Positions 1 to 37,385 of a stretch of DNA of 43,467 nucleotides are shown here, piece by piece. The stretch comes from Flavobacteriaceae bacterium (GTDB taxonomy: Bacteria > Bacteroidota > Bacteroidia > Flavobacteriales > Flavobacteriaceae). The stretch spans positions 1 through 43,467 of the forward strand of contig PBHD01000003.1 in assembly GCA_002719315.1 (NCBI GenBank), in the 5' to 3' direction. The position numbers and the translations under genes were made by a program. Under the pieces are notes generated by a model. The model saw only the letters and a program-made list of their open reading frames with translations, did no database searches and was not told the origin of the DNA. Each line of letters starts with the position of its first letter. Position 1 is the first letter of the stretch.

Positions 1-1573
1 TGATTCAGACGGTGATGGAGTTACTGATCCACTGGATCAATGTGCTAACACACCCAATGGAGAGTCTGTTGATGCTAACGGATGTGCTGATAGTCAAAAA
101 GATCCTGATAATGATGGAATATCTGGAGTAAATGATAATTGCCCTAATACGGCTAATGCTGATCAGGATGATTCAGATGGAGACGGCGTTGGAGATGTTT
201 GTGATAATTGTAATGATGTTATTAATGCAGATCAATTAGATAGTGATGGGGATGGTCTGGGTAATGCCTGTGACAGCGATGATGATAATGACGGAATATT
301 AGATACCGAAGATGCTTTCCCTACAAACCCTTCCGAGTCTATAGATAGCGATGGTGATGGTCTGGGAGATCAACAAGATCCTGATGCAGATAATGATGGG
401 GTAATGGACTCTTTAGACAATTGTGTTATCATTTCTAATTCTGATCAATCCGATTTTGATAATGATGGTATTGGAGATGTCTGTGATAGTGATGATGATA
501 ATGACTCATACCTAGATGAAGATGAGAACAGTTGTCTGTCTAATCCAAGATCTACCTCCTCTACTCCTCCAGATTTAGATAATGACTTTATCTCTGATTG
601 TTTTGATAGAGATATTGATGGAGATAATGTCGATAATTATAAAGACGCATTCCCTGAAGATCCTAATGAGTGGGCAGATAATGACTCTGATGGTATAGGA
701 GACAATGCTGATACCGATGATGATAATGATGGTTATACCGATACTATTGAATCTCAATGTGGTACGGATCCTCTCTCTGCTAATTCTGTCCCTATAGATT
801 CTGATGGTGACTCCACCCCTAACTGTTTAGATCAGGACGATGATAATGATTCTTATCCAGATACCCAGGATTTATTCCCCCTAGATCCAAACGAATGGGC
901 AGATACAGATGGAGACTCTACCGGAGATAACGCCGATAGTGATGATGATAATGATGGATACTCAGATCAAGATGAAATTTCCTGTCAAAGTGATCCTTTA
1001 GATGCCAACAATGTCCCCCTTGATTTTGACAAGGATCTTTCTCCAGATTGTATAGATCAAGATGATGATAATGACCAGTGCCTAGACTCTGAAGATGATT
1101 TTCCTTTAAATAGATTATTATGCAAAGACTGTGATAATGACGGGATTGATAATCGCTACGAGTTCGATTCTGATAATGATGGAATTGGTGATAATCAAGA
1201 TGCTTTTCCATGTGACCCTCAAGAATGGAATGATTTAGATAACGATGGAATTGGAGATAATGAAGACCAAGACGATAATAATGACAGTTTTCCTGACGAG
1301 GATTTAATTGTATCTACAGTCCTAACTCCTAATGAAAATGGATTAGAATCTACTTGGAAGGCTATTAATATAGATAAATACCCTTACACCAAAGTAAAAG
1401 TCTATAGTCCTGATGGAGGCCTAGTTTATGAATCTGATAATTATCAAAATGATTGGAGAGGTGAAAATATAAGAACAGGAAACAAACTCCCTTCTGGGCC
1501 TTATTACTATAAAATAGTTCTAGGAGGAACTAATGGTGAAATCAGAGAAGGCTGGCTTTATATTTTTAATTAA
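1..1573 (+). CDS. TSP3-repeat surface protein, 5' truncated, type B T9SS sorting domain
   Basis: The reading frame is already open at base 2 and runs without interruption to the TAA at 1571-1573, so the gene starts before the window; the internal ATG at 404 is not its start. About 435 of the 523 visible residues are thrombospondin type 3 calcium-binding repeats: Asp-rich units such as DSDGDG, DNDGIGD and DDDNDGY separated by Cys-containing loops (DNCP, GDVCD). The last ~85 residues lack these repeats and match the gliding-motility-associated C-terminal (type B T9SS) sorting domain: LTPNENG, then KVKVYSPDGG, WRGEN, LPSGPYYYKI and a short WLYIFN tail. The family is secreted through the outer membrane by T9SS and attached at the surface. 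Calcium-dependent stiffening of a stalk is the usual role of TSP3 arrays. The ligand-binding part, if any, lies upstream and cannot be seen. Confidence 0.9.
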   Translation, partial: DSDGDGVTDPLDQCANTPNGESVDANGCADSQKDPDNDGISGVNDNCPNTANADQDDSDGDGVGDVCDNCNDVINADQLDSDGDGLGNACDSDDDNDGILDTEDAFPTNPSESIDSDGDGLGDQQDPDADNDGVMDSLDNCVIISNSDQSDFDNDGIGDVCDSDDDNDSYLDEDENSCLSNPRSTSSTPPDLDNDFISDCFDRDIDGDNVDNYKDAFPEDPNEWADNDSDGIGDNADTDDDNDGYTDTIESQCGTDPLSANSVPIDSDGDSTPNCLDQDDDNDSYPDTQDLFPLDPNEWADTDGDSTGDNADSDDDNDGYSDQDEISCQSDPLDANNVPLDFDKDLSPDCIDQDDDNDQCLDSEDDFPLNRLLCKDCDNDGIDNRYEFDSDNDGIGDNQDAFPCDPQEWNDLDNDGIGDNEDQDDNNDSFPDEDLIVSTVLTPNENGLESTWKAINIDKYPYTKVKVYSPDGGLVYESDNYQNDWRGENIRTGNKLPSGPYYYKIVLGGTNGEIREGWLYIFN

Positions 1574-3959: not shown

Positions 3960-6900
3960 ATGATGAATAAAACAATTCTGTCTGTTTTATTATTTATCTT
4001 TTATAGCCCTTTAAGTCTATCGCAAAATAAAAATGATCAAACTTTATCTGTTGGAAACAATATAATTGAAAACTATAGCAATAGTTTTTTAAATAGACCC
4101 ACTTCCGTATGGTCTGTTTTAAGGTCTTCTCAAAATAAAATGATTTATTATGGAACATTTGATGGAATTCTCGAATATAATGGTAAGGACATTTCATCAA
4201 TTTCAATTAATGGTAGTATTGAGGAAGAATTAGAAACATCTTATGTTAGAAAAATTATTGAAGATGAAAGTGGTTCAATTTATGCTGCTGGAAGAGGTGT
4301 TTTTGGAAAATTAATAAAAAATAACTTTGGAAAAACAGTTTATCAATCTCTTATGGATAAAATCCCTGATAGCATAAATCCATATAATCAAGCTTTTTGG
4401 GGAGCTGTAAAACAAAAATCTAATTTATTTCTTTATACAAGAGAGAGAGTTTTTAAATGGAATGGAATAAGTTTTGAAAAAATCTGGAAAATTTCTGATG
4501 ATAAAGAAGGAATTGATGCTCTAGGCACTATTCAAACTCTAATTAAAGTAAATGAAAGAATTTTTATAAGAGTTTTTGGTAAAGGAATATTTGAGCTTAA
4601 AGGAAATTCTTTTGAGCTTATAAAAAACTCTACTGTATTCATTAATAATAGAATTGAGTCTGCTAAAATGGTAAATAATAAAATCGTCTTTTTTAGCAGT
4701 AATAATGGAGCCTATGAAATGAATAATAATGAAGAATTTAAAAAAATAAAGAATAAGCCCTTAAACAGTTGGTTAACTAAAAATAAAGTATATAACACTG
4801 AAGAAATAAAATTATTCAGTGATAATCGTTTTCCACTTATATCATTAGAAGGAGGAGTTTTAATTTTAGATGAAAAATTAAATATTGTAGATCTGATAAA
4901 TCAAGAAGATGGATTATTGTCTAATACAATAACAAGTTTTTTTATTGATGTTAATGATGATTTATACTTAACAAGTCTTTTAACTTCCTCAAAAGTTAAA
5001 ATGAATAAATCTTTAACTATTTATAATGAATCTGATGGAATAAAAGGCTTGGTAAGAAAAATTAAAAGATTAAATAATCAACTATTTTTCAGTACAACTG
5101 AAGATATTTTTAAAGTTATCAATAATTCTAATCCTTTAATTAATAATAAAATTAATGATTTAGGAGTTGACGATATACCTAAGAGTTTTATATCACTTGG
5201 TGAAACTATTGTGTCTGCTAACAATTTAAATTTATCAGCAACTTTTAAAAATAAAAAAACTATAATTTCTAATGACAGATTAATCCAATCTCCTCAAAAA
5301 AGTTTAATTGATAAAAGTCTTTTAATAGTTGCTCATCCAATTGAAGGAATTATTTTTTTTAAAAAGAATAAAAAGAATTTAATTAATAAAATAAAATCAA
5401 CTAAAGTATATGGAAAAGGAATAATTGGATTAAAAGAAATTAGTCCAGGAAATTTATACATAGAACTTAGTGAAGACGAAGGATCTTTTATAGCAACTTA
5501 CGATAAAAAGTTAAATATTTCTTTCAAAAGAGTCTTGATTCCTGAAAATCAAAAAATTATAGATGAAAAAGAAATACTCTCAAACAAACTCTTAAATTCA
5601 GATCTTATCGAATTATTTGAAACAGCTGAATTAAATTTTTTTGAAACAGGATTAGGATATTTAGTTTTTGATGATAATCTAAATCTATATAGTGTAAATG
5701 AGAATTTAAAACTTAATGATTTGAAAATAGATCTTTTTCCAATTTTTGAAAATCTAATAGATTTTAATCGACAAAGTATTATTGCAGATGAAACTCAATT
5801 TACTTCAGTAAATCAAAAAACTAAGAATAATTGGTTTTTACAAAATAATGGCGTTATGGAAGTTAAATTTAATGAGTCAGGATATGAAATTCTTAATAAT
5901 TACTCTTACGGAAGTATTGATGATAAAGAACTTTCAGGGGCTTTTTTAAGTGAAACATTTCAAAACCAAGACATATTATGGTTGGGGTCTAAAGATTCTA
6001 AAATAATTTCATGGATACCAAAAAAATATAATTCAATTAAAAAGATAAATATTAAACCAATAATTCAAAACATATCATTTAATGAAAATAATATAGATTT
6101 ATCATTAACTAATAATGCTTTTGATGAAAGTAGAAATATTAAATTTTCATATACTTATCCCTCTTTTGAAAAAGTTGAAAATAATCTATATCGGGCAAGA
6201 TTAATTGGTCAAGATGATACATGGAATAATTGGTCTAAATCGAATGAAAGTAATTACAATAATTTATGGGAAGGTGACTATGATTTTCAACTTCAAGCCA
6301 TGGATACTAATGGGGATATTAGTGAAATCGTTTCTTATAAATTTTCTATAAAGCCTCCTTGGTTTAGAACCTACTTCGCTTATGCTATTTATATTCTTAT
6401 AACTGTTTTTTCAATTAGATTTTTTGGAAAATATCAAGCTAAAAAATCTTTAGAAAAGTCAGATAATGAAAGAAGAGTCAAAGAATTAGAAGAAGCTAAA
6501 AAAATTCAAGAAAGCATGTTGCCTAAAAAGTTTCCTGAATTAAGTGATTTAGATATTGCTGCTGGATTAATAACATCAACTGAAGTTGGAGGTGACTACT
6601 ATGACTACTTTTTAGAAGATAATGGAGATATCTATATAGTTTGTGGTGATGCAACTGGTCATGGAACTGCTGCTGGCATGATGGTTTCCATCATTAAATC
6701 TGCTCTAAATGGCCTGCCTGTTCTGCCCGTAAATAAAATATTAGAACAATTAAATAAAATTGTTAAAAAAATAGATTTAGGTCGTTTAAAAATGAGTTTA
6801 ACTGTTTCTAAAATTATAGGAAATAAATTGTTTTTAAGTTCTGCAGCTATGCCTCCAACCTACTTGTTTAATATTAAAAATAAAAATTGTGAAGAAATTA

Positions 6901-12922: not shown

Positions 12923-14845
12923 ATGAGCTTTAGAATAAATGAAATCTCTATTTTAATTTATAGAATTTTTTTAGTCTATATAAACTATACTTTTTGTCGT
13001 TTACTTTTTGTTTATTTTAATAATGATCTTCTTCAAATAGATAATTTTTTACAATTAACTAAACTTCTTTACCATGGAATAAGATTTGACAGTTTGTCAA
13101 TTGTTTATCTTAACTCCATATTTATTTTACTTTCAATAATTCCATTTAAAATTAATACTTCAAAAATTTATCAAGATGTATTGATTTGGATATACTTTAT
13201 TTTTAATGGAATTGGAATGTTACTAAATTTTATTGATTTTGAATATTATAGATTTAATTTAAATAGATTAATGAGCTCTTTTTTGGAAGCTATTGAATCT
13301 GAACCTAATAAATCAGAATTAATTTTACACTATATTTTTGATTACTATCATATTTTAATAATCTACTTAACCTTTCTTTTTGTTTGGATCTTTTTATATA
13401 AGATGATAAAACATAAGGATCAAATTTATTTTAGAAATAAAAATTATTATTTAAGTTCTATTTTTATCTTTTTATTTACTGCTGTATTTTGTGTTATGGG
13501 TGCTAGAGGTGGTGATTTAAAAAAAAGCACAAGGCCAATAACAATTATTGATGCTATGGATAATGTAAACAATCCTCAACATGCTGATATAATTTTAAAT
13601 ACACCTTTTACTATTCTTAAAACTCTATTTAAAAAGCCATTTAAACTAATTAATAAATTTAATAATGATGAAATTTTAAATGAATTAAATACAATAAAAC
13701 AATATAATAGAGTATTAATAGACCCTTCACCAAATGTTATAATTTTCATTCTTGAAAGTATGGGTAGAGAATACTGGGGGTCAATGAATAAAGAAAGAAA
13801 AATCAAGGATTTTAAAGGATTTACCCCTTTTTTAGATTCTTTAGCTGAGCATAGTCTAGTATTTTCTAACGCTTTTGCAACTAGCAGAAAATCAATTCAT
13901 GCAATGCCATCAATTTTAGCTGGAATCCCATCATTTGAAATCTCATATACCTCAACACCATATTCAAAACAAAAAATTGAATCAATAGTTTCTATTGCTA
14001 ATTCTATGGATTATAACACTTCATTTTTTCATGGAGCTTCAAACGGATCAATGGGTTTTCTTGGATTTTCAAACACTTTAGGATTTAAAAATTATTATGG
14101 AAGAAATGAATTTAATAATGATGATGAATATGATGGATATTGGGGAATATGGGATGAACCATTTTTACAATTCACAAAGGAAACCCTTGACAATAAAAAA
14201 CAACCATTTTTAGCTACTGTTTTTACTATTACTTCTCATGAACCTTATGTAATACCTAAAAAATACGATAATAGGTTTAATCAAGGAGTAATTCCAATGC
14301 ATAAATGTGTTTTATATACTGATTTTTCAATTAGAAAATTTTTTGACGCATCAAAAAACTCTGATTGGTTTAAAAATACTGTTTTTCTTTTTACAGCCGA
14401 TCATAGTAATCAATCATATTATCCATATTATCAGAAAACTATAAATCGATTTGCAAATCCTATTATGATCTATATTCCTAATAGTGAATTTAAAGGAGAA
14501 ATAAATTCCCTAGCTTCTCATATGGATATATATCCAACTATAGTTGATTTGATCGGGTATAAGAAAGCTTTTAGAAGTTGGGGTAAAAGTTTAGTTACCC
14601 CAGATAATTTAAATTCAATAGTTGTAAATTATTTAGGAGGTGGGAGTTATTTTATTATGAATGACAGTTTAATTTCTGTTCACAATGGCGAGAAAGCAAT
14701 AGGTTTTTATGATATTCAGGATAAAAATTTTAAAAATAATTTAATACAAAAAAGAAATAAAAAGATGAATGATTTAGAAAGAAAAGGATCAATGTTTCTT
14801 CAAGATTACTTCAATAGAATAATAAAAGGTGAAATGAATTATTAA
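12923..14845 (+). CDS. LTA synthase family phosphotransferase (alkaline-phosphatase fold)
   Basis: A 640-residue inner-membrane enzyme: about five membrane helices in residues 8-195, then an extracytoplasmic sulfatase/alkaline-phosphatase-fold domain. Metal and nucleophile motifs are ILESMGREYWG (E278), FATSRKSIHAMPS (318-330, containing the Thr/Ser nucleophile), ITSHEPY and FTADHSN (D493, H494). This is the architecture of LtaS and related phosphoglycerol or phosphoethanolamine transferases. LtaS cleaves phosphatidylglycerol, moves the glycerophosphate to an acceptor and leaves diacylglycerol. In a Gram-negative host without lipoteichoic acid the acceptor may be a glycolipid, periplasmic glucan or lipid A, and the donor could be phosphatidylethanolamine. 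The diacylglycerol kinase gene starts on its stop codon (TAATG), which fits recycling of a diacylglycerol by-product. Confidence 0.88.
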   Translation: MSFRINEISILIYRIFLVYINYTFCRLLFVYFNNDLLQIDNFLQLTKLLYHGIRFDSLSIVYLNSIFILLSIIPFKINTSKIYQDVLIWIYFIFNGIGMLLNFIDFEYYRFNLNRLMSSFLEAIESEPNKSELILHYIFDYYHILIIYLTFLFVWIFLYKMIKHKDQIYFRNKNYYLSSIFIFLFTAVFCVMGARGGDLKKSTRPITIIDAMDNVNNPQHADIILNTPFTILKTLFKKPFKLINKFNNDEILNELNTIKQYNRVLIDPSPNVIIFILESMGREYWGSMNKERKIKDFKGFTPFLDSLAEHSLVFSNAFATSRKSIHAMPSILAGIPSFEISYTSTPYSKQKIESIVSIANSMDYNTSFFHGASNGSMGFLGFSNTLGFKNYYGRNEFNNDDEYDGYWGIWDEPFLQFTKETLDNKKQPFLATVFTITSHEPYVIPKKYDNRFNQGVIPMHKCVLYTDFSIRKFFDASKNSDWFKNTVFLFTADHSNQSYYPYYQKTINRFANPIMIYIPNSEFKGEINSLASHMDIYPTIVDLIGYKKAFRSWGKSLVTPDNLNSIVVNYLGGGSYFIMNDSLISVHNGEKAIGFYDIQDKNFKNNLIQKRNKKMNDLERKGSMFLQDYFNRIIKGEMNY

Positions 14846-25794: not shown

Positions 25795-26529
25795 ATGGAT
25801 CTAGAAAATGAATTTAAGGTAGACATTACCGAGGATTACAAGTTTTTCCAATTTTTGGATAACAATCGTAAGCCTAATGAGAAAATATTAGGTAGACTCG
25901 AGAAAAGCATAAAAGAAAACGGCATACAAATACCTATTGTTTTAAATCACAATAATCAAATTATTGATGGTCAACATAGATTTTGGGCTCTTAAAAAATT
26001 AGGCTACAAAGTTCCTTATATTAAAAGTAAAACCTGGAAAGAAGACAAACATACTATAGAAATCAATAATACTGGTTCTAAGTGGAATGCTATGGATTTT
26101 GCTAACTACGCTGCTGAGAGTGGAAATAATGATGTACAAGAAGCTATAAAAATTGCCAAAAGATGGGAAAAAGAAACTGCAAAAAGACTTAGACCAACAA
26201 CTTCCTTAGAAATATTAATGGAAGGTCGATCTCATGTTGGCTTACTTAGTAAGCTAAAAAAGCTTACCTATAAATTAGATCGAGATAGAGGTATGCAAGT
26301 ATATGATTCCTTAAATGAAATGAGTAAACACAAAATGAAAGCTAGCCCCTACTCTTCTAGAATTGCCAGGTCAATTAAAATTATGAATTACGATCTAGAT
26401 GATTTAGACGAGGAGGTCATTGAGGTTATGTGTACTGATAATTATATTCAAAACTTTAACAAAGAGAATGATCAATTGGAATATCTCAGAGATATTTATG
26501 ATGAAGCCAAACAAAAATTAAATAGATAA
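25795..26529 (+). CDS. ParB-like N-terminal domain protein, non-partitioning type
   Basis: A 244-residue protein. Residues about 12-78 form a ParB/Srx-type domain: KILGRLEKSIKENGIQIPIV, then IIDGQHRFWALKKLGY, with DGQHR at 58-62 in place of the GERR box of true chromosomal ParB. The rest is helical and charged (KIAKRWEKETAKR, DLDDLDEEVIEVM), with no clear helix-turn-helix and no ParA gene beside it. Proteins of this sort in phages, plasmids and other accessory regions act as regulators or nucleases; ParB-domain CTPase activity cannot be judged here. It is first in an apparent operon with a membrane protein (start on its stop codon, TAATG) and the giant adhesin, so a regulatory role is possible but unproven. 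Confidence 0.75.
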   Translation: MDLENEFKVDITEDYKFFQFLDNNRKPNEKILGRLEKSIKENGIQIPIVLNHNNQIIDGQHRFWALKKLGYKVPYIKSKTWKEDKHTIEINNTGSKWNAMDFANYAAESGNNDVQEAIKIAKRWEKETAKRLRPTTSLEILMEGRSHVGLLSKLKKLTYKLDRDRGMQVYDSLNEMSKHKMKASPYSSRIARSIKIMNYDLDDLDEEVIEVMCTDNYIQNFNKENDQLEYLRDIYDEAKQKLNR

Positions 26530-27113
26530 TGAGTAATACAGAAATTATTTCTAAAGCATACGATACTCTTTCTGGGAAATGGTTAAGAGTTTTATTTCCA
26601 TTTTTTATAGTTGCTTTAATTCCAAATCTCTATCAACCCAGCGCTAACTATAGCCCTCCTATTTACTTAGCTTTTATTAGCCTATTTGCTTCAGGGCCAT
26701 TTATATATGGAGGTTCGCTTTTAGCTTTAAAAATTTCAAGAGGAGAAGATTTTAATTTTGAAATGATATTTTCCGGTTTTAATCATTTTATTAAAACATT
26801 ATTACTTTACGTATCTTTTATATTGATAGTTATTGCTGGTTTATTATTACTTATAATTCCAGGAATATATTTTTCTTTAAAATACTCTATGTGCTTTTTT
26901 GCTTTAGTGGAAAATCCAGAACTATCTATTGGTGAAGCTTTACAAAGAAGTGGTGATTTAATGAAGGAAGATAAATATAAACTTTTTCTTCTTTATCTAT
27001 TGTATTTTTTAATTGTTATTGCAGGGCTTATAACTATCATCGGATGGCTTTGGGCTCTTCCATTGATATACGTGTCTAGTGCAATTTTTTATGAGTATTT
27101 AAAAAACAAATAA
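26529..27113 (+). CDS. DUF975-like polytopic membrane protein
   Basis: A 194-residue membrane protein with about five to six helices. The layout resembles DUF975 / glycerophosphodiesterase-membrane-domain proteins: an N-terminal AYDTLSGKWLRVLFPFFIV, ALKISRGEDFNFEMIFSGFNHF, the helix pair ending LLLLIIPGIYFSLKYSMCFFAL, then ENPELSIGEALQRSGDLMKEDKYKLFLL and a closing LPLIYVSSAIFYEYLK. The G-F, IPGI..KYS and S..LM..K.K motifs are the family's signature points; its biochemical function is unknown. The ATG overlaps the stop of the ParB-like gene by one base, and the giant adhesin gene follows after 10 bp, so the three are probably co-transcribed. It might assist export or envelope placement of the adhesin; that is a guess. 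Confidence 0.75.
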   Translation: MSNTEIISKAYDTLSGKWLRVLFPFFIVALIPNLYQPSANYSPPIYLAFISLFASGPFIYGGSLLALKISRGEDFNFEMIFSGFNHFIKTLLLYVSFILIVIAGLLLLIIPGIYFSLKYSMCFFALVENPELSIGEALQRSGDLMKEDKYKLFLLYLLYFLIVIAGLITIIGWLWALPLIYVSSAIFYEYLKNK

Positions 27114-27123
27114 CTAAAGCTGA

Positions 27124-30100
27124 ATGATAAAAAATTCTTTAAAATATCTATTTCTAGCACTACTCTTCTCTACGGGTCTTATGGCTCAGGTGCAAGTAGG
27201 TCAACCAATTCTTGGTGCAGCTTCAGGAGATTATTTTGGAGAAAATACAGCTATAAACGGAAACGGAACAATAGTTGCTGGATTTGCTACCATGCATGAC
27301 TCAAATAAAGGGCACGTAAGAGTTTTCCAATATACACCAACAGGAAATGCCTCTTGGACTCAAATGGGCTCTGATATAGATGGAGAATCGGCAAACGACA
27401 ATGGTGCTATTGAAAATGGTGGAAACAATATTGCTCTTAATTTGGCTGGAAATATTTTAGCATTTGGCTCTGTTAATGATGATGGAACTGCTACAAATGC
27501 GGGTCATGTTAGAGTTTTTCAATTTATAAGTGGTAATTGGGTCCAAATGGGAGATGATATTGACGGAGAAGCTCAAAGTGATAATCTTGGAGTTTCTGTG
27601 GCGCTTAGTGATGATGGTTATACAATAGTAATTGGAGCTAATGAACATGATGATGACGGTGCAAGTCAGACAGGGGCTATATATGTATACACTTGGAATG
27701 GTTCAGCTTGGGTTCAAAAAGGTTCTTCACTACATGGATCAGCAAATCATTTATTTGGCAATGATGTTTCTGTCAATAGTAATGGAACAATAATAGCGGG
27801 ATCCTCAAGAAGGGCATCATCGAATAAAGGACAAGTTAAAATATATCAATACAATTCTTCTGCTACAGATTCATGGACTTTAATAGGAAGTATTTTAGGA
27901 GAAGCTAATAATGATTATTCTGGAGCAAGTATTTCACTAAATAGTAGTGGTAATATTATTGCTATAGGCGCAACTAATAATACTGGAGCAAATGGCTCTC
28001 AGTCAGGTCATGTAAGAGTTTATAAATACTCCCCAACAGGAAATGCATCTTGGACTCAATTAGGAGCAGACATAGATGGTGAGTCTGCGAGTGATTACTT
28101 TGGAGATGCCGTTTCTTTAAGTGGTGATGGTTTTACCCTTGCAGTTGGAGCTAGGCAAAATGAAGGAGGTGGTTCTACAAGAGGAGGTGTTTATATTTAT
28201 AAATTTACTCCTACAGAAACTACTTCATGGACTCAGTTTAGAACTGATATTGATGGAGGAACAAGCAATAATGCCTTTTGGGGAGAGTCTGTTAGTATTA
28301 GTAAAGATGGTACTAGAGTTGTTGGAGGTTCTTGTTTAGCTGATGATGGCCCTGGAAGTAATGCAGGGTTACTAAAAGTTTTTGACTTTTTACCTGAGGT
28401 TGATATTTTCCCTGAGGCTGCTAGATACATAGAAGATTCTAATAGTGAACAATATTATGGAGCTATAATGCCAAGTTCGGGTCAAGTTACTTTTACAGCT
28501 ATTTTTTCCGAGCCCATTAACGCTATAACCCCCCCAACCATTACTATTGGCAATGGTGTTACTAGCGCTACAATGACTGCAATTACAAGTCAAACTTTTA
28601 TGGCTTTTGCTCAAAGTGGGGTAGCAAGTTATGTGTCAACTGATAATTCCAGCATGACTTTTTGGACCTACAATGTAAATGGAACAACTCAAAATTATAG
28701 CACAAGCTTTACTGATAATGCCGTATGGGTATATTCCCTTAATATGGATAACTGGTCTGGATCAGCTAGTGGTACTTTTACCGCTATTGTTTCTGCAACA
28801 GATTTTGGTGGATATCTTACCACTGCTACAACTACTTATACTTTTGAAAATATAATGATTGACACTACTACTCCTACAGTTATTCTGAGTGACAATTTAA
28901 AAGAGGAAAAAATTCTAGATATAGGGTGGAATTCAACAACAAGTACAGGTGGAGACGGTGCCTGGCAAGAATTTACTCCAACTAAAAGTGGTTACGTTTA
29001 TTCAATTTATTTAAAACAAGGTAATCCTACAAATTTTGGCTATGGCTTCGACAGGTCAAAAAATAATCCTGCTCGAGATTTTGGCTTTGAAATGAAAATT
29101 TATAGTGGTGTTACGGGAAATAATGGAAGTTCTTTAAGCGGAGGAACTTTAATTGGTACAACAAAAGGTTATATACCAAGAAATCAAACAACTGCAGGTG
29201 GAGTAGCTTACGTTTTTGAAACGCCTGTTTCGGTTACTGGAGGCACAAAATACTGGTTCCAAATTAAAGCACTTGATTCATCTATTAGTACTTATTCTAA
29301 TACCTATATGGTAGCTCCAGATACTTACGCTAACAATGCAGGGCTGATTGGAGGAAGTTCTAAAGACTTGGCCTTCCAAGTGTGGATGAAAAATACTCTT
29401 TCAAAAAATATTGGTCTTTCCTCAACAGTAACTCTTGTTGCGAATTTTAGCAAATCTATGGCTAACTCTCCTACAATAACTATTGGAAATGGAGTTAGTA
29501 ATGCTTATATGACAGCAAGTAGTTCTTCAACTTGGAAATATGTTTTAGATATGACAAGTTGGTCTGGATCTGGCACATCAGCAAAGGCTACAGTTAATGG
29601 TAAAGATTATTTCGGAAATACCATCTCAGGAAATAGCAGTATAACTTTTAACATTGATACTACAACACCTACTGTTACTCTTACAAGTACTGATGCAGAT
29701 AACCGCCTTGGAATTTCAGATACAGTAACTTTTACGGCTACTTTCTCTGAGTCTATGTTAGATTCTCCTACAATTACTATTGGAGATGGAGTTGTAAATA
29801 AAACCATGACTGTTTCGTCAAGCTCTGGAGTAACATCTACAGTCTGGACGTATTTTCTAAATATGTCCACCTGGTCTGGATCACAAAGTGATACATTTAA
29901 AGTAACAGTTGCTGGAAAAGATCTTTCAGAAAACCCCTATTCAGGATCAGATAGTATAACAATCTCTATAGATACTGTAGCCCCTACAGTAATGCTAAAC
30001 GATACTGATGCTGATAATATTATTGGGTCTAGTGGAAGCGTAACTATAACAGCATTTTTTTCAGAGCAATTGACTGCAAATCCAATTATAAATTTGTCAG

Positions 30101-33100
30101 GCATAGGGTCTGCTACCATGACTCCTTTAACCGGAACAACTACGTCTGGAATTACTATAACAGGTAGCTCTCTCTGGAATAGTGGCGAACCTAACAATTC
30201 CAATTCAGGTACTGAAAAATATGGTATGATTCAAGACAATGGTGGCTGGGGATTAAATGATTCTACTCCATCTCATCAAACTGTTCATGTTCTTGAAATT
30301 AATTCAACTGATATAAAATCAATTTCTGGTTATAATTTCTTAGGTACATTTAATGGCCATAATTATTTTCAATCAACAGGTAGAGCTACTTGGGAAAACT
30401 CTAAAACTCAAGCGGTTTCCAAAGGTGGATATTTATCTGTTATTAATAGCACTGCCGAATTTAATTTCTTAGTTGCGCAAACCTTTTCAAATGTAAATAT
30501 TGGAATATGGATTGGTCTTTATCAAGACACAAATGACCCCAATTATTCTGAACCTTCAGGTGGTTGGAAATGGATAAATCAAAATTATTATGCATATAAA
30601 TATATTCTTACTAGCTCCAACTCAGTCGCCACAACAACTGCTACAGTATCAGGAACCGATAGCAATGGAAATGCTTATTCTGGATCTGAGAGTATAACAT
30701 TTAACTTTGATTATACTAATCCTCAAGTTACACAAAACGGAATTTCTGCCGACAATCTGACCGTTAGTTTAACCTTTAACGAAGCTGTATATACAGAATT
30801 AATTAGTGGTCAGGGATCTAATTCTCTTTCGACTTCAGATTTTCAGATTTCACTATCTGGCAACTCAAGTGTTACTTTAGGCTCTAGTTCTCCAACATCA
30901 GTTACCAGAATTTCAGGTACCAATATATATTCATTGACTATATCATTAACAGGATTTGCTTCTGGACAGGAAACATTAACTATAACTATCCCTAGTAATT
31001 CAATTTATGATATTGCTGGAAACAGTCCATCAACAGTTATAAATATTTCATTAAAAAATAATCTTTTAGTTTACTATGATTTCTCAAATCCAAACTCATA
31101 CAATGGGTTAGCTACTTCTAATAGCAATAACACTGTAGAGGACTTGAGTGGAAATAATTACGATGGAATTATTAAAGAGACCGATAGAGTTTATTATGAT
31201 TCTTATCAGGATGCCATCTATTTTAATGGAAGTGAACAAGAAAATGCAGGTATAGCCATCAAAACTTTAAACTACGTTAATAATAATTCTGATCAGCTAA
31301 ATGAATTGAGTATTGTTGCTCGAGTAAAATTAAAAACTGGTGAATTAAACCGTGGTAATGATCAAAGAATTTTGTTTACTATGGATAGGTCTGAAAACTT
31401 TAGATTTTCTGTGGGATCAGATTATAATACTGACGCTAAAGGTAAATTGGCATTCCATTTTAACGTTAACGGTACTGTTTTTGACACTCATGCAGTTAGT
31501 CAAACTTTAGATTTAAGAGACGAAAAATGGCATACTGTAGGTGTAACGTTTAAAGCTAATGTTCCTGGAGGTCTAAAGTATTATGTAGATGGTATATTAG
31601 TTTACCAACATCCTGGAAATTTTGGTCCAATAGGAAGTGAAAATGGTGGTCCAGGCCCAAGATATGGTTGGGTAGGTAATGGAAGTGAATCTGCATCAGA
31701 AGGAAATAATACAGGTCCAAACCATCTCTTTTATGGTTATATGCAAGCTGTAAAATATTATAACAAACAGCTTTCAGTTAATCAACTTAATATCCCTGAA
31801 ACAAGTCCTCCAAATGTTATTTTAACAGATACAGAATCTGACAATATTATTAAAGGTTCAGATACAGTTACGATAACTGCTACATTTAATGAAGCTATGA
31901 GCTCCTCTCCTACTATTAATATTTCTAATCAGGTGACTAATGCTGCAATGACTGTTTCATCTACAAATAATATATGGTATTACAATTGGAGTGTTACTAG
32001 TCAATATAGTGGTCTTGCAACAGCTACTGTATCAGGAACAGATCTATCAGGAAACGCATACGCGGGAACTGAAAGTATAACATTTTCTGTTGATAATACA
32101 GGCCCTAGCGTAGGTCTAACACACACGCATCCTGATCAAATTGTTTCAGATCTAGATAATCTTGCTTTAACTGCCACATTTAATGAATCTCTAAGTTCTA
32201 CACCAACTATATTTATAACTGGTCTAATGAGTGAAACATTTATGAGTTCAACTAACAGCTCTACTGTATGGACTTATTATTGGAATGTCCCTGGGGTTGC
32301 TTCAGTTACCACTGGAGACTTTAGTCTTTCAGTTTCTGCAACAGATATTGCAGGTAACCTAGCCACTATGACTAACAGTGTCACATTTACAATAGATAAT
32401 GTAAAACCTAAATTTAGCTCTGCTGCAATTAATACAAATCAAGATGAAATAACGTTAAGTTTTACTGAAAATGTTTATACCAATCAAAGAAGCGCTTCTA
32501 ATCTTAAATCCTCGGGAGCATTAGTTGTTGGTGATTTTGTCTATTCTATTTCTGGGGGAACAGCGACTCTATCAAGCACTACCCCTTCAAGTATTCAAAT
32601 TAATTCAGCTTCTTCTGTAAGTCTCGGAGTTCAGTTAAATGGAATCCCTGATGGAAACGAAATAATAACTATTGATGCTGCAACATCAGAATCAATTCAT
32701 GATATAGTAGGAAATTCAATGTCAGGAGCTGCAGGGTATCTGATAGGGCCTAATAAAGGTTGGACAGCTTCTCAAGGATCTTTTCAAAATTTTTCTGGAA
32801 GTTCAGGAAATAAACCATACATAGCAGAAAATAACTTAATTTTTGCATATACAGATAATGTGTCTGTCTACAAAACTTTTGATATCCCCACAGGTGTAAC
32901 TACAATAACATTAAGTGTTGATTACTTTAAAAATTATAGTGCTGATACAGGTAAGGTTGTTGTAAAATGGTACAATGGAAACAATTATACTAATTATACA
33001 AGTAACTCTGGTACACTTACCGCTGATAATACCAATGGAAAAAATTTCACGCAAAGCTGGGCGATACCTATGGCTTCTGATGTTAATAACAGGAAGGTCA

Positions 33101-36100
33101 GAGTGGAATTACATCAGATTAATGAAGCTGAATATTGGGCAGGAAATTATGGAATGAAGTACAGAAACTTAAAAATTTATGGAGTTGATGGCGGTTCAGA
33201 TACAGGCCAAATAAGCAATTCTGTCAAACTTACAAACGTTAAACCAAATATAGTTTCTACAACTATTACAAGTGATAATTCTTCTGTAACAATTATTTTT
33301 AGTGAGAATGTAACTGCTCCAGTAGGTCAAAGTGCAATAGATGCTGGTGATTTTGAACTTTCTATAAGCGGAGGATCTGCAACACTTTCCTCAACAACCC
33401 CTTCATCATTTACAGCAACTAATTCAAAAACTTATGTTCTAGGGTTACCACTATCCTCTGCGGCTAATGGCTCTGAAATTCTAACTGTAAAAACTCTTTC
33501 AAATTCTGTAATTGATTCTTCCGAACAGCAGGTTGATTATTCTCTAGCTCAATCAAATACAATTCAATTAAATGATAAAGCAGGCCCTGTAATTATTGAA
33601 TCTGTACTTCAAAAAAGAAATAAATATATCGATCTAACCTTTAATGAAGGTGTTTATGCTGACACATCATCATCAACAGGTCTTTCAACATCAACGCTTA
33701 GTTTGACTCAAACTAATGGAGCAGATATTGGCTTATCTATTATTGGTGTTAAGACCGCAAACAATGAAGAGTTAAATAATGCAGGAAGATTATCTGGAGG
33801 GGAAACAAAAATTCGAGTCTTTTTAACTTCTACCAACTCTCCTACTGGAAATGAAGTTTATACAGTTTCGGCTTATAATTCATCTTCAATTTATGACGCC
33901 CTAGGTAATAATATGTTAACTAATCAAACTAATAATACTTTTAAATTAAATCCACCTGTTTCTGGACCCCCATCACTTCTATTATCTACTATAGAAGCTG
34001 ATCCAGAAACTATTGTGGTTAAAAGCGAAAGATTAACATCAGTGAATAATACAACCTCATCTGATATTTCTGGTACTACAGTTTCTTCTCCAACAGTTAA
34101 TATATTAAGAGAAGAAGTGACTGGACCTGACTTATCAAAAATTGGATCAGAATTTCAGTCTGTGGAAACAAATAATGCTAGAGCTTCAACTATTATTATT
34201 CAAGCAGTAGATAGTTTAGGGCAAAAATTTAATCAAGGAGGTGCATCAGTAAAAGTATTTTATTTCCTTTTTGGAAATAGAGTTACTCTTGATACAAAAG
34301 ATAATAATGACGGTACATATACTGTTGAATTTAACCCAGGAATGATTGGAGAAAACAAAGATTTTACTTTAGGGTTTACCCTTTATGAAAAAGAGGCAAA
34401 AGACAAAACAAAAGTATCAGTATTGATGGATTCTGATGGAGATGGTATTGCAGACACTTTTGACCTTTGTCCATTTACTGAATTTGGAAAAAGCGTAAAT
34501 AAAGATGGTTGTGCACTATATCAAGTTGATAAAGATAAAGATGGCGTGTATGATAATTTTGATGCATGTCCAAACACCCCTGAGGGAGAAAAAGTTGACG
34601 AAAATGGTTGCTCAGATTCAGAAAGAGATACTGATAAAGATGGTGTTTTTGATATAGATGATAATTGCCCAGAAGAATATAATCCTAAACAAGAAGATAA
34701 AGATGGTGATGGTATTGGAGATGTTTGTGATACAGAAAATCCATTGCCAGAATTAAGAACTAATCAGATTAAATTTGTTCAACTTCCAAAAAATAAGTCT
34801 TCAGTTGGTAAAGTTTCAGCTATTGATCCTGAAGGAGAATCTTTAAGTTTTAGTTTAAATCCTAATTCTAAATTTGTTAATGTATTAGACATAACTCCTT
34901 CTGGTGAAGTTATTGTAATCTCTGGTCCTCTTCTTGAGTTTAAATCACAGTATAATAATTCTGATTTAGAAATCATAATTGATGATGGCACAAATCAATT
35001 AAAAGTTTCTGTCAGAATTGTAATTGAAGATCAGCCTAGACCACCTGAGATCTTTGTAACACTACTTCCTGTTAAAGAAGATGCATTGCCTGGGGTTACT
35101 GTTGCTATTATTGAAGCTGAAGATCCCATGGGTGGAGAAATTATCTCTCTAACTTTTGAAAATCCAACAGGAGTTTTTGAATGGCTTCCAACAATTGAAG
35201 GAGATAGCGGAATAGTAAAATTAGCAGCACCTCTTGATTTTGAAGAGCAAGAATCTCATCCAATTATAATAACAGCCGTTGGGGAAGAATTAACGGGAAT
35301 TTTTCAAGATGAAATTCCAGTTGAAGACATTCCTAACGCAGTATATACAGGAAGATTTTCTCTTGCTGTTTTCCCTGTTCAAAATCAAACACTAGGAGCA
35401 AAAGTTGATCATACAAGATATCATAACCCTTTTAACAAAAGTGTAGGTAAATGGAAAATTAAAAAGAAAATTTCTGGAGGAGCTGATAGAGCATTATTTG
35501 AAATTAAAACAAAATCTACTGAACCTGAAATTAATCAAAAAACACCTCAGGATGAAAATGAATCCTATTTAGCATTTATTAATCCTCCTGATTTTAATAA
35601 TCCTCAGGATCATAATAAGGATAATGTATACGAAGTTGAAGTTGATTTTATAAATTCTGAAGATGGTGCTGTAGAGGTACCAGTTGTTGTTACTCAAACT
35701 CAAATTCAAGTTCCTGAAGGAGCTCCTGTTGCACTCGAGCTCCAATCTACTCCTGCTTTACCTACAGATGATACTGATGGTGATGGTGTTGCTGATATAA
35801 TTGACAACAGTCCTTTAGTTGCAAATCCTGACCAAATTGATGAGGATGGAGATGGAGAAGGTGATGTTTCAGATGATTTTGATCATGATGGAGTTTGGAA
35901 TCCATATGATGTATGTGCTGATACTCCTTTAGGAGAGGTAGTAAATATGGAAGGTTGTGTATTATTTTATATCCCAGGACAAAACTTTAATATTTCGAAA
36001 ACTGAAAAATGTGCAGGAACTAATCAAATAAACCTTGCTGTAGAAGACACCTCTTACACTTATAAAGTAAATGTTACAGGTGCAGTAAATTCTAATTATA

Positions 36101-36687
36101 GCTTTTCAAACAGCAATTGGTCTTTAGATAATTTATCCGCTGGAGATTATAATATTTGCGTTACCGTTGATGGCGTAGATCCTACTATGTTTGAAAGATG
36201 TTTTAAAGTAAACATCAAAGAACCTTCTCCACTATCTGTTTTTGCTATGGCTAATGATTTGGAAAATAAAGTTTCTTTTAACCTTTCTGGTGGTTCTGTC
36301 TATAATATAACTCACAATGGTAAAACAACTCAAACTTCAAAATCAAATCATACACTAAGTTTAAAAAGAGGTTTAAATAGAGTTACTATAACAACGGGTA
36401 TTGAATGTCAAGGAATTTTTGAAGCGACTTATCTAAATTCTAATGAAGTAAAGTTTTCACCTAATCCATTTAATGAATTTATTAGTATTTATGTTGGAGG
36501 AGAAGATCGAGATATAAAAGTTGAGATTCACGCTACAGATGGAAGATTAATACATTCTGAAAATTGTGTTTTAGACAATTATTCAAGAACTTTAGAAATA
36601 AATACTGGTGAGTTCAAACAAGGAACATATTATATTAAGGTTAAAGGGGAGAATACAGATCAGTCATTTAAAGCAATAAAATATTGA
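27124..36687 (+). CDS. Giant T9SS-secreted mosaic adhesin: propeller, Ig-like, lectin, LamG, TSP3
   Basis: A 3187-residue secreted protein. Order by residue: signal peptide 1-22 (GLMAQ); seven FG-GAP-like repeats, about 27-423, fitting one seven-bladed propeller; Ig-like repeats opening with DTTTPTVTLT..D or variants, spread over about 425-2300; a jelly-roll-like insert 597-757; C-type lectin halves in swapped order 1018-1154; a LamG/concanavalin-like domain about 1315-1558; a further beta-rich insert about 1875-2035; TSP3 calcium repeats 2435-2539; cadherin-like repeats about 2545-2870; a short second TSP3 array 2883-2955; and a C-terminal type A T9SS sorting domain (FSPNPFNEFISIYV...GTYYIKVKG) about 3110-3187. 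Likely a surface protein that binds glycans or particles. It follows two small genes in an operon and is followed by a lipoprotein gene. The reading frame is intact over 9.5 kb. Confidence 0.9.
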   Translation: MIKNSLKYLFLALLFSTGLMAQVQVGQPILGAASGDYFGENTAINGNGTIVAGFATMHDSNKGHVRVFQYTPTGNASWTQMGSDIDGESANDNGAIENGGNNIALNLAGNILAFGSVNDDGTATNAGHVRVFQFISGNWVQMGDDIDGEAQSDNLGVSVALSDDGYTIVIGANEHDDDGASQTGAIYVYTWNGSAWVQKGSSLHGSANHLFGNDVSVNSNGTIIAGSSRRASSNKGQVKIYQYNSSATDSWTLIGSILGEANNDYSGASISLNSSGNIIAIGATNNTGANGSQSGHVRVYKYSPTGNASWTQLGADIDGESASDYFGDAVSLSGDGFTLAVGARQNEGGGSTRGGVYIYKFTPTETTSWTQFRTDIDGGTSNNAFWGESVSISKDGTRVVGGSCLADDGPGSNAGLLKVFDFLPEVDIFPEAARYIEDSNSEQYYGAIMPSSGQVTFTAIFSEPINAITPPTITIGNGVTSATMTAITSQTFMAFAQSGVASYVSTDNSSMTFWTYNVNGTTQNYSTSFTDNAVWVYSLNMDNWSGSASGTFTAIVSATDFGGYLTTATTTYTFENIMIDTTTPTVILSDNLKEEKILDIGWNSTTSTGGDGAWQEFTPTKSGYVYSIYLKQGNPTNFGYGFDRSKNNPARDFGFEMKIYSGVTGNNGSSLSGGTLIGTTKGYIPRNQTTAGGVAYVFETPVSVTGGTKYWFQIKALDSSISTYSNTYMVAPDTYANNAGLIGGSSKDLAFQVWMKNTLSKNIGLSSTVTLVANFSKSMANSPTITIGNGVSNAYMTASSSSTWKYVLDMTSWSGSGTSAKATVNGKDYFGNTISGNSSITFNIDTTTPTVTLTSTDADNRLGISDTVTFTATFSESMLDSPTITIGDGVVNKTMTVSSSSGVTSTVWTYFLNMSTWSGSQSDTFKVTVAGKDLSENPYSGSDSITISIDTVAPTVMLNDTDADNIIGSSGSVTITAFFSEQLTANPIINLSGIGSATMTPLTGTTTSGITITGSSLWNSGEPNNSNSGTEKYGMIQDNGGWGLNDSTPSHQTVHVLEINSTDIKSISGYNFLGTFNGHNYFQSTGRATWENSKTQAVSKGGYLSVINSTAEFNFLVAQTFSNVNIGIWIGLYQDTNDPNYSEPSGGWKWINQNYYAYKYILTSSNSVATTTATVSGTDSNGNAYSGSESITFNFDYTNPQVTQNGISADNLTVSLTFNEAVYTELISGQGSNSLSTSDFQISLSGNSSVTLGSSSPTSVTRISGTNIYSLTISLTGFASGQETLTITIPSNSIYDIAGNSPSTVINISLKNNLLVYYDFSNPNSYNGLATSNSNNTVEDLSGNNYDGIIKETDRVYYDSYQDAIYFNGSEQENAGIAIKTLNYVNNNSDQLNELSIVARVKLKTGELNRGNDQRILFTMDRSENFRFSVGSDYNTDAKGKLAFHFNVNGTVFDTHAVSQTLDLRDEKWHTVGVTFKANVPGGLKYYVDGILVYQHPGNFGPIGSENGGPGPRYGWVGNGSESASEGNNTGPNHLFYGYMQAVKYYNKQLSVNQLNIPETSPPNVILTDTESDNIIKGSDTVTITATFNEAMSSSPTINISNQVTNAAMTVSSTNNIWYYNWSVTSQYSGLATATVSGTDLSGNAYAGTESITFSVDNTGPSVGLTHTHPDQIVSDLDNLALTATFNESLSSTPTIFITGLMSETFMSSTNSSTVWTYYWNVPGVASVTTGDFSLSVSATDIAGNLATMTNSVTFTIDNVKPKFSSAAINTNQDEITLSFTENVYTNQRSASNLKSSGALVVGDFVYSISGGTATLSSTTPSSIQINSASSVSLGVQLNGIPDGNEIITIDAATSESIHDIVGNSMSGAAGYLIGPNKGWTASQGSFQNFSGSSGNKPYIAENNLIFAYTDNVSVYKTFDIPTGVTTITLSVDYFKNYSADTGKVVVKWYNGNNYTNYTSNSGTLTADNTNGKNFTQSWAIPMASDVNNRKVRVELHQINEAEYWAGNYGMKYRNLKIYGVDGGSDTGQISNSVKLTNVKPNIVSTTITSDNSSVTIIFSENVTAPVGQSAIDAGDFELSISGGSATLSSTTPSSFTATNSKTYVLGLPLSSAANGSEILTVKTLSNSVIDSSEQQVDYSLAQSNTIQLNDKAGPVIIESVLQKRNKYIDLTFNEGVYADTSSSTGLSTSTLSLTQTNGADIGLSIIGVKTANNEELNNAGRLSGGETKIRVFLTSTNSPTGNEVYTVSAYNSSSIYDALGNNMLTNQTNNTFKLNPPVSGPPSLLLSTIEADPETIVVKSERLTSVNNTTSSDISGTTVSSPTVNILREEVTGPDLSKIGSEFQSVETNNARASTIIIQAVDSLGQKFNQGGASVKVFYFLFGNRVTLDTKDNNDGTYTVEFNPGMIGENKDFTLGFTLYEKEAKDKTKVSVLMDSDGDGIADTFDLCPFTEFGKSVNKDGCALYQVDKDKDGVYDNFDACPNTPEGEKVDENGCSDSERDTDKDGVFDIDDNCPEEYNPKQEDKDGDGIGDVCDTENPLPELRTNQIKFVQLPKNKSSVGKVSAIDPEGESLSFSLNPNSKFVNVLDITPSGEVIVISGPLLEFKSQYNNSDLEIIIDDGTNQLKVSVRIVIEDQPRPPEIFVTLLPVKEDALPGVTVAIIEAEDPMGGEIISLTFENPTGVFEWLPTIEGDSGIVKLAAPLDFEEQESHPIIITAVGEELTGIFQDEIPVEDIPNAVYTGRFSLAVFPVQNQTLGAKVDHTRYHNPFNKSVGKWKIKKKISGGADRALFEIKTKSTEPEINQKTPQDENESYLAFINPPDFNNPQDHNKDNVYEVEVDFINSEDGAVEVPVVVTQTQIQVPEGAPVALELQSTPALPTDDTDGDGVADIIDNSPLVANPDQIDEDGDGEGDVSDDFDHDGVWNPYDVCADTPLGEVVNMEGCVLFYIPGQNFNISKTEKCAGTNQINLAVEDTSYTYKVNVTGAVNSNYSFSNSNWSLDNLSAGDYNICVTVDGVDPTMFERCFKVNIKEPSPLSVFAMANDLENKVSFNLSGGSVYNITHNGKTTQTSKSNHTLSLKRGLNRVTITTGIECQGIFEATYLNSNEVKFSPNPFNEFISIYVGGEDRDIKVEIHATDGRLIHSENCVLDNYSRTLEINTGEFKQGTYYIKVKGENTDQSFKAIKY
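27202..28392 (+). repeat. Seven FG-GAP-like repeats forming a predicted beta-propeller
   Basis: Seven units of about 55-60 residues share the pattern (D/L)xxGE(S/A)xxD..G..(V/I)SL(S/N)xxGxxIAxGA...GHVRV(F/Y)xY. Examples are DIDGEAQSDNLGVSVALSDD, ILGEANNDYSGASISLNSSG and DIDGESASDYFGDAVSLSGD. Seven copies equal one closed propeller. At the DNA level the copies have drifted, so this is an old protein repeat rather than a recent duplication. Confidence 0.75.
30166..30597 (+). other. C-type lectin-like domain with halves in reversed order, nested in an Ig-like repeat
   Basis: SLWNSGEPNN (from residue 1017), then YGMIQDNGGWGLND and VHVLEI, is the C-terminal half of a C-type lectin fold (W-x-GEPNN, WND, LE). 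It is followed by GYNFLGTFNGHNYFQS, ATWENSKTQAVSKGGYLSVIN, IGIWIGLYQD and GGWKWIN, which is the N-terminal half. The whole block interrupts an Ig-like repeat between SATMTPLTGT and YYAYKYILTS..ATVSGTD. See findings for interpretation. Confidence 0.7.
34426..34740 (+). repeat. TSP3 calcium-binding repeat block in the adhesin
   Basis: Residues about 2435-2539 contain DSDGDGIADTFDLCP, DKDKDGVYDNFDACPNTP, DTDKDGVFDIDDNCP and DKDGDGIGDVCD: four thrombospondin type 3 units with Asp calcium ligands and paired Cys. A shorter block, with DTDGDGVADIIDN and DHDGVWNPYDVC, follows near residue 2883 (35770-35990). Such blocks often precede the T9SS sorting domain in Bacteroidota surface proteins, as in the truncated gene at the window's left edge. 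Confidence 0.85.
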
Positions 36688-36689
36688 TT

Positions 36690-37385
36690 ATGAGAAAAAA
36701 TCTAATTTATATAATATTATCCCTGAGTGTTTTAGTTCAGATTAATTGTAGTAATGATTCTGGACCTAAAGATCCTTTAGCACCTAACCTTATTTCCCCT
36801 AATAATAATGAAGCTTGTTTTGATGGGACTATTGTAAATGATACTCAAAGTAGTGTTGATTTTCAATGGAGTGTTTCTGAAAATGCCGTTAGTTATGAAG
36901 TTTTAGTTAATAACTTAGCTAATCAAACATCTCAAGTATACGGTAGTGGAACTAATCAACTTAATATAACACTAACTAATGCTGAGCCTTACTCATGGTC
37001 TGTAAACGCTTTAGGAGAAGATGGCACAACACCTGCATCAAGTCAAACATGGAAATTTTATTTAGCTGGAAAAAATATTATTAACTATGCTCCGTTTCCA
37101 CCAGAATTATTAAGCCCTAGATCTGGAGGAAATTTGACCCCTGTCAATGGAATAGTATTATTAAGTTGGAATTGTACTGATGTTGACGATGATCTTGAGT
37201 CTTTTGAAGTTTATCTTGATAATTCAAATGGAACCACATTGCTCAAAACCATACCCTATGAAACTCTTACTACCGAAATTGAGGTGGATGTAGAAAATAA
37301 AAAAGATTATTATTGGAAAATAATTGCTATCGATTCTAATGGTAATTCCAGCAGTTCTGGTGTATATGGTTTTAGAACTAATTAA
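36690..37385 (+). CDS. Lipoprotein with two fibronectin-III-like domains
   Basis: A 231-residue putative lipoprotein. I take the ATG at 36690 (MRKNLIYIILSLSVLVQINC), 2 bp after the adhesin stop codon; a TTG at 36684 would overlap that stop and add only two residues. The signal ends at Cys20. The mature protein has two beta-sandwich domains: about 28-120, ending SWSVNALGEDG..TWKFYLA, and about 130-230, PELLSPRSGG...VLLSWNCTDVDDDLESFEVYLDN...YYWKIIAIDSNG. Both keep the W and Y/W core residues of fibronectin type III domains. Its position directly after the giant adhesin suggests an accessory, for example a surface anchor or partner. Confidence 0.8.
   Translation: MRKNLIYIILSLSVLVQINCSNDSGPKDPLAPNLISPNNNEACFDGTIVNDTQSSVDFQWSVSENAVSYEVLVNNLANQTSQVYGSGTNQLNITLTNAEPYSWSVNALGEDGTTPASSQTWKFYLAGKNIINYAPFPPELLSPRSGGNLTPVNGIVLLSWNCTDVDDDLESFEVYLDNSNGTTLLKTIPYETLTTEIEVDVENKKDYYWKIIAIDSNGNSSSSGVYGFRTN

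Follow-up and report, generated by a model that had tools for sequence, protein, structure and literature searches.

Few binding folds are used or studied as widely as the C-type lectin-like domain (CTLD). Its elements canonically run b1-a1-a2-b2-long loop-b3-b4-b5, and its original ends, strands b1 and b5, are adjacent in the fold. Circular permutations typically arise when a domain is duplicated within one slot of a protein and the outer halves are then lost. The NC1 domain of collagen IV, like the domain reported here, departs from the usual topology of the C-type lectin-like superfamily, but by segment swapping rather than permutation: it is a structural outlier in that superfamily of SCOP, listed as segment swapping in the accessible part of PMC3779223, which names two other superfamilies, not the C-type lectin-like one, as circularly permuted. 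No permuted CTLD is described in the accessible parts of PMC3779223, PMC4444583, PMC3521204, PMC7824862, PMC8195603 and PMC8286594, and no natural one was found in the full-text literature searched, a scope that leaves out most subscription papers.

The window analysed here, a stretch of 43,467 nucleotides from a Flavobacteriaceae genome, very probably encodes a secreted, adhesin-like giant protein in which a naturally circularly permuted CTLD is inserted into a loop of one Ig-like repeat of the stalk. The domain shares with the Pfam family PF00059 (Lectin_C) both halves and the WIGL, W.W, EPN and ND positions, and the N-terminal half of its model matches solved CTLDs, but its halves are reversed and it is attached to its host via the long loop. 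Half-specific HMMs place the C-terminal half (C-half; residues 1014-1067, 30163..30324, + strand, as are all features given here; E 1e-15), which comprises three predicted strands b3-b4-b5 and most of the b5-b1 linker, before the N-terminal half (N-half; residues 1068-1153, 30325..30582, E 1e-31), which by HMM and model comprises b1-b1'-a1-a2-b2 and ends at GGWKWIN. These HMMs were built from alignment A2, and a scan of all 3187 residues of the protein found no further CTLD half above thresholds. A chance origin of the reversed order is excluded because of the HMM E-values and the same order in many genomes. The preliminary description, made from the sequence alone, had claimed swapped halves at 30166-30597, and translation and half-specific HMMs confirm both the order and, to a few residues, the span; the ten-residue linker that it proposed (residues 1060-1069, 30301..30330), which would run from b5 to b1 as the fused canonical termini and overlaps the HMM-drawn ends of both halves, is borne out by the predicted strands 1053-1059 and 1070-1076 that flank it in the AlphaFold2 model.

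The host open reading frame (27124..36687, + strand, 3187 amino acids, characterized by translation and Pfam) has a signal-peptide-like start (by eye), FG-GAP repeats, tandem Ig-like repeats, TSP_3 repeats and a C-terminal type IX sorting domain (PF18962, 28.7 bits, cut-off 27; TIGR04183, 25.3 bits, cut-off 23). FG-GAP_2, TSP_3 and Por_Secre_tail match above the Pfam cut-offs, and a Big_3_3 match falls below (24.3 vs 27). The protein meets the criterion for type IX secretion, namely a C-terminal sorting domain; export via the type IX system is itself inferred. The repeat that holds the lectin begins at 29977..30162 (residues 952-1013; predicted strands 957-960, 972-979, 988-991 and 995-998) and, after a short junction, resumes within 30583..30723 (predicted strands 1156-1163, 1170-1179 and 1184-1192). 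Two further non-Ig stretches lie between Ig repeats of the same protein, at about 28850-29450 (by eye) and at 31438-31596, the latter with a weak Laminin_G_2 match (E 0.098). Neighbouring frames (25795-27113 and 36684-37385) are tightly packed against the giant one; they include one with a ParB_N match under the cut-off and a DUF975 frame, and the downstream neighbour, which has weak fn3/Ig-like matches, overlaps the stop codon of the giant frame.

Circular permutation was judged by whether rotation yields one continuous match, with the cut at the linker, and at the level of sequence profiles this criterion is satisfied. In the native order, Lectin_C aligns only to the second half when the whole frame is scanned (residues 1088-1159, profile 3-66 of 107, 20.6 bits, below the cut-off of 22.6) and covers profile 3-62 at 23.5 bits when the domain is isolated; with the halves exchanged, a single match covers profile 3-97 at 29.9 bits. 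All five units subjected to this exchange gain 6.4 to 13.2 bits (23.5 to 29.9, 32.2 to 45.4, 31.1 to 41.6, 13.7 to 22.9 and 21.6 to 32.5), with the match extending from about 2/3-59..64 to 2/3-97..103 of the 107 profile positions. Against an HMM trained on 101 canonical rows alone, 57 of 58 permuted units score higher when rotated at the linker, the mean rising from 71.0 to 93.1; the sole unit without a gain (L100, residue 925) scores slightly lower (55.7 to 54.5). The best cut in a scan with a step of four residues lies at most 12 residues from the linker in 56 of the 58 units and at -22 and +13 in the other two. No canonical row was improved by exchange (0 of 101; the cut, after residue 88, falls near the boundary of the halves), with the caveat that the canonical rows of this HMM were themselves found with profiles from permuted ones.

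AlphaFold2 predicts a fold for the isolated domain (47 sequences) with a mean pLDDT of 86.2 and a pTM of 0.84; the model has elements E24-29, E33-38, E44-50, E61-67, E70-75, H81-90, H101-110, E119-125 and E139-141, in the order b3-b4-b5-b1-b1'-a1-a2-b2. This is a cyclic shift of the canonical series and does not meet the CTLD strand-order criterion, so the domain is classed as a permuted variant and not as an ordinary member. The structure prediction named as a check in the preliminary description gives one compact domain, although pTM and pLDDT alone, without half-half contacts, speak for the two halves packing on each other. Foldseek comparison of this model with the PDB returned 183 matches at E up to 10 and none at 0.001, which excludes nothing because it is expected of a permuted chain. 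The 50 matches listed by VIA-align are all CTLDs by title (Z 7.0-7.8, where 7-8 is middling according to the tool's note; 78-90 residues, 1.7-4.1 A) and cover only model residues 51-154, the N-half, as a permuted CTLD predicts under a sequential aligner. Prediction of the domain together with its host repeat, from an alignment with one plain Ig row removed and the other rows thinned, is weaker (pLDDT 77.1, pTM only 0.62). The top match of that model is 9flw, the Aureispira grappling hook protein, a bacterial adhesin (Z 9.4, 2.0 A, 81 residues, model 2..245); behind it come immunoglobulin-type receptors, SiiE and further large adhesins of bacteria, and many antibodies. Since only 81 residues align across so long a span, the flanks are inferred to align as one Ig with the lectin skipped; when joined, they align with four other Ig repeats of the 3187-residue protein. 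The earlier proposal that both termini of the lectin fall inside one Ig-like repeat holds in this structure alignment, in which the flanks close into one Ig across the insert.

A second genome of the same genus (L005) has the same half order, with 91-92% amino acid identity over the domain, 91% nucleotide identity and a dN/dS of 0.17 (0.09 in the first half, 0.25 in the second). Permuted units, recognized by half-HMMs or by eye, are present at 32 of 66 loci in named assemblies, the remaining loci having the N-half first or alone. The 32 loci come from 24 assemblies, most of them with Flavobacteriaceae or uncultured Bacteroidetes in their titles; the 24 also include three of 'Marinoscillum' (Reichenbachiellaceae) and a single Crocinitomicaceae bin. 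One record with permuted units is at chromosome level (NZ_OU342399.1, 2.03 Mb, Candidatus Arcticimaribacter forsetii; L100 and L107). Among 397 genomes of the window's family, a set that overlaps the 24 assemblies, 30 have a match and permuted units were read in 12. The window's own genome has two more permuted CTLDs in a 9046-residue open frame (L020; G000:C5, about 13233-14630), and the scanned stretch of this frame has DUF7507 and DUF11 repeats around both.

Half-HMMs, used with a lenient C-half threshold (E up to 5, Z 5000), find a C-half directly before 61 distinct N-halves (54 before only and 7 on both sides), after only for another 64, and not at all for 50. Eight of the 54 are second units of C-N-C-N arrays and the 7 two-sided N-halves are first units. 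At least one entry among the 61 duplicates another in truncated form (L034 / L062, third unit). The 50 N-halves without a detected C-half were sorted by eye only: those at eight loci (L044, L093, L100, L103, L104, L107, L108 and L123) are permuted with a diverged C-half, and most others are canonical in appearance, their diverged C-half lying downstream. One N-half with a degenerate C-half (L104, residue 2002) stands among the 64, and among the 102 canonical rows of the tree described below, but is permuted in later counts. Thinning at 93% similarity leaves 59 permuted and 101 other rows; the 59 come mostly from Flavobacteriaceae or unclassified Bacteroidetes, with Reichenbachiellaceae and one Crocinitomicaceae bin. 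The position of the cut, between the GGWKW strand and W..GEPNN, corresponds across the rows listed wherever conservation permits judging. Cysteine is absent from 52 of the 59 permuted units as trimmed for alignment and also from 47 of the 101 canonical rows.

In wider samples, no permuted unit outside the window's own genome was seen among the loci read, either from the phylum (395 genomes, 21 matched; N-halves L145-L174) or from the class (395 genomes, 22 matched at 1e-8; L175-L191), and most of the loci read have a C-like stretch downstream of the N-half. These samples overlap the earlier ones, and only part of their matches were assigned loci or read. A search of viral contigs with the whole 3187-residue protein found no relative, and profile A3 found two viral loci (L192 and L193) with a near-identical protein in which a canonical CTLD is interrupted by another domain. 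On these IMG/VR phage contigs (about 4794-6542) the insert is a Laminin_G_3 domain in the long loop; the loop is opened at the place corresponding to that of the permuted units (by eye), but a foreign domain is inserted there and the order remains canonical.

Permuted units occur in Big_3-like Ig repeats in the window, L107, L123 and L044 (by eye), and also in DUF7507/DUF11 repeats (L020), a Calx-beta repeat protein (L092) and a PKD/Ig-like repeat (L080, by eye). Another lies near the N-terminus of a SASA-esterase/YadA_head/Peptidase_S74 protein of tailspike-like make-up (L097). This locus, the only one of its group to be domain-scanned, and L098, L101, L102 and L105 all place the permuted CTLD close to the N-terminus of open frames of about 680-1120 residues. 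Canonical CTLDs in Ig-like repeats of Bacteroidota (for example L131, and L024 by eye) have in common with the permuted units a SEPxGGWKW-type subfamily signature, but differ in their normal N-then-C order. The canonical CTLD of L131 (from residue ~343; also L177) occupies the same slot, in the same type of Ig repeat, as the permuted CTLD of L080.

The preliminary description favoured a true circular permutation over the remnant of two tandem lectins, and the rotation tests, the compact predicted fold, the closure of the Ig repeat, purifying selection and a clustering in trees that is compatible with one origin all back that preference. A remnant of two canonical CTLDs in one Ig slot, deprived of their outer halves and with the remaining halves no longer folding together, is improbable. 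Tandem canonical CTLDs are known in Planctomycetota loci (N-C-N-C, L126 and L138), and C-N-C-N arrays with a degenerate first C-half (L063 and L065) make such tandems a plausible ancestral route; what does not fit is the present state, because a dN/dS of 0.17 is not expected of debris, C-N pairs are kept in many genomes and several host repeats, and the model is confident and compact. Useless half-domains are rejected on the same dN/dS and model. Pairing of the N-half of one unit with the C-half of its neighbour beyond an intervening Ig repeat, which would give a canonical lectin with an Ig in its long loop, is hardly tenable. It draws on giant proteins in which successive units have stalk repeats between them (L020, L062 and L073) and on the viral loci L192 and L193, where Laminin_G_3 is inserted in a canonical CTLD at the same loop position, yet lone units exist in open frames of 522 and 531 residues (L071 and L068), the flanks close into one Ig, and the isolated unit is predicted to fold alone. 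For the window protein this pairing is rejected, as only one C-half and one N-half are detected in its 3187 residues. An assembly or binning rearrangement, conceivable for a protein with repeated Ig units in a 17-contig draft genome, can be practically ruled out, being contradicted by the same order in an independent genome (L005), by permuted units elsewhere, including the chromosome-level record, and by the lack of a tandem DNA repeat at the site (the only array found is at 35580). With dozens of relatives sharing the rearrangement, the reversed-half CTLD appears to be a genuine and inherited novel form of a very widespread fold.

The permuted domain is likely to have arisen by tandem duplication and loss of the outer halves, a route that is inferred, with a maintained family and not debris as its product. 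The original ends b1 and b5 would have been joined through the short linker; new ends would have arisen within the long loop, where the GGWKW strand leads to the W..GEPNN loop, and, lying side by side, would have been plugged into the Ig hairpin. No full tandem lectins, for which the preliminary description had proposed a search, were found in this type of Ig repeat; the nearest cases are L131 compared with L080, and the C-N-C-N arrays of L063 and L065 in other repeats. Arrays of this kind with a degenerate first C-half are also seen at L090, L091, L096, L099, L100, L103, L104 and L110. Some (L063, L065, L090, L099 and L100) may be later duplications of a permuted unit or partial reversals, and the arrays may hold either two permuted lectins or a single canonical lectin flanked by outer halves.

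A quick tree of 160 rows requires 5 changes between the permuted and canonical states, compared with 47 in shuffles, and a tree from N-halves alone, with the L104 row relabelled, requires 4. Forcing all permuted rows into one clade gave a likelihood 16.7 above that of the free search (p-AU 0.648), and 20.5 above it in the N-half-only tree (p-AU 0.753), so that the single clade is rejected in neither case. The rows had been reduced from 168 to 160; L030, L031, L145, L038, L075, identical starts, rows more than 93% alike and canonical rows with fewer than 40 residues after the N-half were excluded. Any row that was not read as permuted received the canonical label by default, and many forks of the trees lack resolution. 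A single origin of the permuted units is the simplest reading and is compatible with these trees, but is not proven by them.

The first-placed C-half carries an EPN motif of calcium-site-2 type (residues 1022-1024, 30187..30195), a glutamate equivalent by alignment to the third site-2 ligand of mannose-binding CTLDs (residue 1031, 30214..30216) and the ND of a WND-type motif (residues 1045-1046, 30256..30261). E1022, N1024, E1031, N1045 and D1046 match the site-2 ligands of mannose-binding protein A. The window copy therefore has the ligand residues of the site intact, and the retained EPN..E..ND set may form a calcium-dependent glycan site for attachment to polysaccharide particles or cells; such adhesion is inferred from residues alone, without binding data. 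The corresponding positions are kept to differing degrees in the 59 permuted units (E in 37, P in 58, N in 43, the second N in 33 and D in 48), and E, N, N and D occur together at aligned positions in 23 of the 59, a set that is not universal, suggesting that some copies probably bind sugars via calcium and that others have drifted, again without binding data. As all five ligands lie in one half, the permutation would leave the chain segment of the site unbroken and shift the point of attachment beside it. With its new ends in the long loop, the lectin is inferred to hang from the stalk by its ligand-loop side and not by its base. Given its type IX sorting tail, the protein is best guessed to be a glycan adhesin, either at the surface or released.

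If confirmed, the permuted domain would mean that the CTLD fold tolerates opening in its ligand loop, would provide a natural template for mounting a lectin in a stalk through a pair of neighbouring ends, and would reveal a class of lectins that appear as half domains in ordinary profile searches. With a canonical CTLD in one case and a permuted CTLD in another occupying a shared Ig slot, this evolutionary step can be tested directly.
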